Shown here: in pieces, positions 2 to 1,573 of the stretch
How positions within the stretch are numbered: the first letter of the stretch is position 1
Layout: each line of letters begins with the position of its first letter
NCBI GenBank assembly: GCA_944350485.1
Contig: CALVPE010000025.1
Coordinates: 1 to 36,355, forward strand
Reading direction: 5' to 3'
DNA: 36,355 bases
Source of the DNA: an uncultured Bacilli bacterium
Lineage (GTDB): Bacteria; Bacillota_I; Bacilli_A; RF39; UBA660
Notes under the pieces: model-generated
Database searches by the model: none
The model's input: only the letters and a program-made list of their open reading frames with translations
Told to the model about the DNA's origin: nothing
Program-made: the position numbers and the translations under genes

Positions 2-1573
2 TGTATGTTAGTAAGTGATAGTTTAAGTGATGATGTTGAAACAGCTAAAGTAAATATTAAAAGTAAAGGTGAACCAAATTTAAATGATACAGCTCCAAGT
101 TATACTTATGTAGAAAAAGTAGAAAAAAGTGTTACTAATCCAGTTACTATTGATAATAAGAAAATTTATGTAGGAACAGAATACACATTTAATCAAACAA
201 CAGGACAATTTACAGTTATAACTAATGCTGGTAATGTTATTTTAAGTGATGATTATTTAAATTACTATACATGTGGAAGTACTATTTCTACATGTGATAC
301 AATTTATAAAATTTTAGAAACAAGTATTGAAGGAACAACATATAAAATAACTTTAGCCGATAGATATACTTATCAAATCGCAAGTACGATAAGAAGTGAA
401 GTAGGATTATATGAAACAGAAGATGATTATGGAACATCATATATATATCGAGGAGATGTAAAAAATAATAATGTCTACTTTGCTGGATATTATTGGAAGA
501 TAATAAGAACTAATGGAGATGGTTCAATTAGATTAATTTATAATGGAGAAACATCAAATGCAACTGGAAATCAAACAAGTATTAATAATACAGCTTATCA
601 ATATAATACAAGATTTCCCGATCCAACTTATGTAGGTTATATGTATGGAGAAGATTTTGAAGTTCAAACTAGTAGCGAAGCAACTTATAACGATATAAAT
701 GCTTTAAAAAAATATTATTTTGCTGATAACTATACTTTTGATGAAGAAACTAAAACATTTAAATTATCAGGAAATATTATTGAAAGCGGAAAAACATATA
801 GTGAAATGAATAGCTTAGGAGATAATGGATTTAAAAAATATCCATATAGTTGTCAAGGAACAACTAAAGATTCTACTTGCCAGTTTATATTAAAAATAAA
901 TAGTTATGTTAATGAAACTCGTGTTAAAGCCCAGTATATCGCTTATTCATCAACAAGTTTAGAAGCAACAAGAAAAGATACAACTAGTAGTAATATTAAA
1001 ACTCAATTAGATAATTGGTATCAAACTAATATTATTGGAAAAACTGATAGTCAAGGGAATTTAGTTACTAATTATATAGTTGATGGAACATTTTGTAATG
1101 ACAGAAGTTTTGCTAGTACTAATACCGGAAATGGCTTTAGTCTGGTACCAAATACTTTATATGCAGGTTATAAAAGATTATATAGTGATGAAAGTAAAAC
1201 AGCAACTTTAAAATGTGTTAATAATAATGATAAATTTTCTAAAACAGCAAGTCGAGGAAATGCCAAATTAACATATCCAGTAGCTTTAATAACAGCTGAT
1301 GAAGTAGCTTTAGCAGGAGGAAAACATGATATGAAAAATCAAGATTATTATTTAAGAACAAATGCTTATTATTTGACCATGTCTCCTTCGTACTTCTATT
1401 CCAGCCACGCTTTTGCTCTCGTGTTCCGCGTGTACCCCGCTGGCGAGCTTCATCCTTGGGCTAACGTCACTAACTCCTTCGGCGCCCGCGCAGTTATCAA
1501 TCTTCGATCTGATATTCTAATATCTCAAGGAGATGGAACTATAGAAAATCCGTATATTTTAACACTTGCTTAG
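2..1573 (+). CDS. Large surface protein, 5'-truncated, with putative diversified C-terminal lectin-like domain
   Basis: The frame is open to the window edge (codon at 2-4 before the first ATG at 5). No signal peptide or ribosome site is visible, so the true start probably lies upstream. Residues are numbered from the ATG at 5. A region around residues 138-180 (ETEDDYGTSYIYRG, then FAGYYWKIIRTNGDGSIRLIY) and the C-terminal block from about 430 (YPVALITADEVALAGG, MSPS, GARAVINLRSD, GDGTIENPY) match a large family of gut Firmicutes surface proteins. I recognise these by pattern only, and their C-terminus resembles a C-type-lectin/FGE-like fold. Cys pairs in the middle may form disulphides. Codons from residue 459 to about 501 are strongly GC-rich and end mostly in C or T, unlike the rest of the gene; see the variable-region entry. 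Function is presumably extracellular binding (inference). Family assignment is moderately sure, ligand unknown. Confidence 0.75.
   Translation, partial: CMLVSDSLSDDVETAKVNIKSKGEPNLNDTAPSYTYVEKVEKSVTNPVTIDNKKIYVGTEYTFNQTTGQFTVITNAGNVILSDDYLNYYTCGSTISTCDTIYKILETSIEGTTYKITLADRYTYQIASTIRSEVGLYETEDDYGTSYIYRGDVKNNNVYFAGYYWKIIRTNGDGSIRLIYNGETSNATGNQTSINNTAYQYNTRFPDPTYVGYMYGEDFEVQTSSEATYNDINALKKYYFADNYTFDEETKTFKLSGNIIESGKTYSEMNSLGDNGFKKYPYSCQGTTKDSTCQFILKINSYVNETRVKAQYIAYSSTSLEATRKDTTSSNIKTQLDNWYQTNIIGKTDSQGNLVTNYIVDGTFCNDRSFASTNTGNGFSLVPNTLYAGYKRLYSDESKTATLKCVNNNDKFSKTASRGNAKLTYPVALITADEVALAGGKHDMKNQDYYLRTNAYYLTMSPSYFYSSHAFALVFRVYPAGELHPWANVTNSFGARAVINLRSDILISQGDGTIENPYILTLA
1379..1505 (+). other. 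Candidate DGR variable region inside the surface-protein gene
   Basis: Counting 1381-1500 gives 68 G/C of 120 bases (57%) and only 16 A (13%), against A/T-dominated sequence directly on both sides. Almost every codon ends in C or T (TAC, TTC, TAT, TCC, AGC, CAC, CTC, CGC, CCC and so on). That is what random replacement of the adenines in AAC/AAT codons of a template repeat would give. Two AAC codons remain (1463, 1472). The patch encodes the aromatic-rich segment between MSPS and GARAVINLRSD near the C-terminus, the usual location of DGR variable regions in C-type-lectin-fold targets. No reverse transcriptase or template repeat is in this window, so the mechanism is inferred. Confidence 0.65.
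1511..1524. repeat. Small perfect dyad just 3' of the GC-rich patch
   Basis: GATATT and AATATC form a perfect inverted repeat with a 2-base centre (or a 5-bp stem with a 4-base loop). It sits about 20 bases after the GC-only run GGCGCCCGCGC at 1481-1491. DGR targets of the Bordetella-phage type have a GC-rich initiation site and then a short hairpin after the variable region. The stem here is AT-only and short, so the parallel is suggestive only. Confidence 0.35.

Follow-up and report, generated by a model that had tools for sequence, protein, structure and literature searches.

The window, by which we mean the whole 36,355-nucleotide stretch analysed here, is contig C25 of G000, the 1.15 Mb assembly of an uncultured Bacilli bacterium (75 contigs, 92% complete). 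It opens in a 523-aa ORF whose 3' end carries, in frame, a GC-rich patch (Table 1). Positions 1381-1500 have a GC fraction of 0.567 and an A fraction of 0.133 by composition count, while 120-base stretches of the window average 0.238 GC (sd 0.063). The maximum for a stretch of this length is 0.583, at 1374; the richest stretch outside the patch reaches 0.458, and 100 windows simulated with a first-order Markov model peaked at 0.433. GC3 is 0.625 in the patch as compared to 0.076 in the remainder of the gene, and 34 of the 40 patch codons end in C or T, as compared to 55% elsewhere. These counts confirm an earlier note on this DNA, which had described the patch as GC-rich (57%) and poor in adenine (13%) within an AT-rich gene, and in frame with codons ending almost only in C or T.

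Table 1. Coordinates of the features discussed, in the window unless a genome or contig is named.
Feature	Position	Strand	Basis or content
Putative DGR target (variable protein) gene	2-1573	+	ORF; 5' end cut by contig start; homologues 60-78% identical
C-terminal C-type-lectin-like domain (predicted), 384 aa	419-1570	+	AlphaFold model, VIA-align matches
Putative variable region (VR)	1382-1492	+	Gapless, codon-for-codon alignment to the G002 template repeat (TR)
3' constant segment, VINLRSDILISQGD	1493-1538	+	1499-1538 identical in both VR genes (window, C63), both flanks differing
Second VR copy	G000 C63:197-307		Counterpart of window VR 1382-1492
DGR-type reverse transcriptase (RT), sole RT in the G000 assembly	C19:52284-53258	-	IGSICSQ (IGSxxSQ) and YMDD motifs; RVT_1 above cut-off
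G002 TR	C6:43928-44036		Translation TPSNFNAANANANVYNVNPTGELNQWNNVTNSNGVRA
Dispersed intergenic template-RNA loci	L131-L170 (G014, G003); e.g. L131:1131-1367, L153:247-482	+ (L131), - (L153)	Promoter-like leader, VR-like core, conserved structured 3' RNA

Searches of Pfam, NCBIfam, PADLOC and PHROGs with the window protein (P0001) returned no family match. A structure model of all 523 residues had a pLDDT of 54 and its matches were meaningless, and the last 384 residues were used instead; with 42 homologues, AlphaFold modelled this domain at pLDDT 87 and pTM 0.86. VIA-align matched the model to part of a Thomasclavelia IgA peptidase (Z 13.3), a Bacteroides fimbrial protein (Z 7.0), Lcl (5.8), many C-type lectins (4-5) and Mtd 1yu1 (4.0), where values below 8 are suggestive and not proof. 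The VR lies in the final strands (residues 322-360), and this position and the repeated C-type lectin matches fit the scaffold of a diversity-generating retroelement (DGR) target. The model supports, at moderate Z, the claim that the patch lies in a lectin-like C-terminal domain, and the VR stands close to the gene's end at 1573. A full-length homologue in G002, a sister species of the same genus, has 856 aa and an N-terminal hydrophobic segment, by analogy with which the window protein may be displayed at the surface. The constant segment that follows the VR, also found in the G000 paralogues on C57, C14, C4 and C37, is a candidate 3' homing (IMH-type) sequence.

A second variable region and the template repeat of a sister species

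We found a second copy of the patch, 88% identical, in a paralogous gene on another contig of G000 (C63:185-330). The two VRs differ in 15 of 111 columns, nearly all at codon positions 1 or 2, and 11 of the 13 codons changed across the patch are nonsynonymous. Not one of the 40 bases at 1499-1538 differs, as compared to 15/172 upstream and 9/20 downstream. When the non-A columns of the VR are taken together with these 40 bases, 2/119 differ against the 15/172 upstream (Fisher p 0.011), the low divergence expected if one template overwrote both genes. From their sequences, the window and C63 genes both look overwritten from copies of one template. The repeat of about 120 bases that the earlier note predicted is present in the genome as a second VR; no template copy was found in the assembly. 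Five further paralogues in G000 (C34, C57, C37, C14 and C4) keep the frame and flanks, with a middle that is AT-rich where aligned. Those on C57, C37, C4 and C14 (L010, L013, L012 and L011) have an AT-rich VR stretch and are possibly old VRs that are no longer overwritten.

An intact cassette of target, TR, MutS domain I-like (MSL) gene, Avd and RT is present on contig C6 of G002. Its Avd matches Pfam bAvd above cut-off, and its third gene matches PF01624 MutS_I at 2.3e-7. Between the G002 TR and four VRs, one adjacent and three remote (two on C24, one on C9), 62 of 69 mismatches are at a template A (29% expected, p 3e-26), giving at least three remote genes rewritten by this TR. The target genes linked to it are ∼62-68% identical to the window gene, and a TR inferred from the window and C63 VRs has the G002 TR as its best match outside G000 (E 5e-14). 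Of the 15 columns at which the window and C63 VRs differ, 13 coincide with adenines of the G002 TR (13/32 A columns versus 2/79 others, Fisher p 8e-7), a test that is indirect for the window VR because the template is that of another species. Adenine-directed replacement, as proposed in the earlier note, is supported by these differences and by the mismatches within G002. Other members of the genus have TR/VR pairs too, as in G005, where 22/22 mismatches are at A. A degenerate second TR/VR-like copy (L068:3463-3640, minus strand) lies between the RT and ffh on G002 C6 and could permit excision of the cassette by recombination.

Reverse transcriptases and templates in G000 and its relatives

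We use class I for the type of the window, C63 and G002 C6, and class II for the type of C19 and G002 C19 (our own labels). The only RT in the G000 assembly, on C19, has as its best PDB sequence match 8ub7 ('Reverse transcriptase', 328 aa). Directly upstream is a 109-aa Avd-like ORF that matches NCBIfam DivGenRetAVD at 1.6e-5, below the curated cut-off, and the PHROG 'Avd protein of DGR' at 2.1e-6. The 113-aa ORF preceding it is a distant homologue of the G002 MSL gene, and family searches with this ORF returned no match. The C19 RT is 68-70% identical to the RTs of G010, G009 and G015 and to a decayed RT in G002 C19, and 44% identical to the class I RT of G002 C6. Sequence and synteny assign the C19 RT, together with its RNA flank, to class II; the window VR falls in class I. 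The earlier note had placed both RT and template outside the window; a DGR RT does lie elsewhere in the genome, of class II, contrary to the refuting case of no such RT that the note had named, and the template is missing from the assembly.

Contig C19 ends ∼35 bases downstream of the class II TR position in G002 C19 and G010, which would put the class II TR of G000 immediately beyond the contig end. Class II VRs were found in G000 on C69, C60, C5 and C9, and C69 probably abuts C19 across an assembly gap. Another target family, in which each protein has two VR-like segments (WLITPYSSSNV...GVRPSINL), occurs in G010 (L078:5654-7561, minus strand), where it adjoins the class II TR, and at the end of C69 in G000 (L087).

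For the window VR, no TR was found in the G000 assembly by DNA search with the VR itself or with a TR reconstructed from both VRs, by search with the G002 TR plus RNA, or by search with RNA model R1, and no class I RT was found there. An exact pattern search of viral_contigs gave no match. On C63 the target is followed by a 286-base spacer with no cassette and then by ffh, whereas at the orthologous G002 locus the class I cassette stands between target and ffh. Among the 14 genomes read on the upstream side of ffh, only G000 and G002 have DGR parts beside it, and other genus members have unrelated genes there. Taken together with the lack of a class I TR and RT in the assembly, this contrast indicates that the G000 lineage lost or relocated the cassette, that G002 acquired it, or that it falls within the 8% of the genome lacking from the assembly.

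Two other sister species, G003 and G014, have 25 and 22 matches, respectively, to an RNA model of template-RNA 3' ends. We read 37 of these loci, all of which lie outside ORFs of at least 100 aa and have cores of 107, 110 or 113 nt that are stop-free in the VR frame. The template RNA contains helices with compensatory changes, and Rfam gave no match to these loci at gathering cut-offs. Target-domain matches number 45 in G003 and 39 in G014, some of them the template cores themselves. Most of the dispersed loci have no adjacent RT, and the two genomes contain few RTs. The cores diverge far more than their flanks and not chiefly at adenines, which holds for close cores as well; a one-to-one pairing of TR and VR with A-only mismatches was not found in either genome, the best pair having 12 non-A mismatches.

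Origin of the patch and relation to known systems

The best explanation is that the patch is the VR of a remotely placed DGR target (probability about 0.92). That the target is remote, or trans-acting, as the earlier note proposed, is supported by the second VR on C63 and by the three remote VRs of the G002 TR. A GC-rich TR, rich in AAC and AAT codons, would be transcribed and copied by a DGR RT with Avd into cDNA carrying random bases opposite adenines, and the cDNA would take the place of the corresponding sequence at the target gene's 3' end. The outcome would be a GC-rich, A-poor, in-frame stretch that alters a C-type-lectin-like surface domain at its tip. We infer from the sequence comparisons that the window VR arose by such mutagenic retrohoming and that a cassette of class I, resembling the one in G002, would be its writer; in the G000 lineage this cassette may be unassembled, moved or recently lost.

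A sharp GC shift in an AT-rich genome could also come from ordinary horizontal transfer of a GC-rich domain or from a chimeric contig, with no DGR involved. We regard this as highly improbable, given the second copy with the same boundaries on C63, the homologous TR/VR sets in G002 and the clustering of differences at adenine columns; the A-column test already contradicts it. Within the DGR reading, the class I cassette (TR, MSL, Avd and RT) may have been lost altogether, leaving the window and C63 VRs as frozen past products. The full cassette that G002 keeps at the target-ffh locus, the restriction of DGR parts beside ffh to these two genomes, the absence of a class I RT and TR from the assembly and the resemblance of the paralogues on C57, C37, C4 and C14 to old VRs drifted to AT-rich codons all favour such a loss. 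Absence is weak evidence in an assembly of this completeness, broken into contigs at DGR repeats, and the two VRs remain GC-rich and identical at non-A positions, so any loss would be recent. We give this possibility somewhat less than even odds.

The class II RT of C19 might instead write the window VR from a second, unassembled template, one RT thereby serving two templates. No other RT was found in the assembly, and the gap past the end of C19, which would hold the class II TR, may hold more. In the relative L067 (CAMVAF010000046.1, 1-3250), a window-family target with a GC-rich VR has as its neighbour the decayed remnant of a class II-type Avd/RT, an adjacency that would fit such sharing. 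In G002, though, the class I TR is accompanied by an intact RT, Avd and MSL of its own, and the identity of only 44% between the two RT classes also speaks against it; we consider it unlikely. It is more doubtful still that templates are uncoupled from the RT, with a free-standing template-RNA locus serving the window VR in trans, a picture suggested by G003 and G014.

The system resembles the DGR of Bordetella phage BPP-1 (Mtd/TR/Avd/bRT) in the Avd beside the RT in G000, in the TR-VR adenine mismatches, seen in the sister genome G002, and in a VR at the C-terminus of a protein of C-type-lectin fold; Mtd is in the fold list, and 8ub7 is the best PDB match of the C19 RT. It differs from BPP-1 in its cellular genome, its several remote targets, the lack of a TR found in G000 and the MSL gene of the G002 cassette. 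In cyanobacterial DGRs, C-type-lectin targets whose VR is close to the gene's 3' end lie away from the RT (PMC7517822), as in the window, but the protein family and phylum are different here and the template of the window VR is missing from the assembly. MSL (PF01624) and HRDC are recorded as DGR accessory proteins (PMC10053308); the third cassette gene of G002 is of this MSL type, and its distant homologue on C19 differs in having no family match of its own.

That targets can be remote and that one TR can serve several VRs is already known (PMC7517822, PMC6642488). The window adds a putative target family, C-type-lectin-like and lacking a Pfam match, from a lineage whose genomes are small. 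Roux et al. (2021) stated that their own approach would not detect remote targets (PMC8144416). Remote DGR targets on contigs that lack both RT and template are missed by contig-based surveys, yet a GC-rich patch noticed by eye can point to one. The apparent pair of a cassette-minus locus in G000 and a cassette-plus locus in G002 could serve to study how long VRs persist after their writer is gone.
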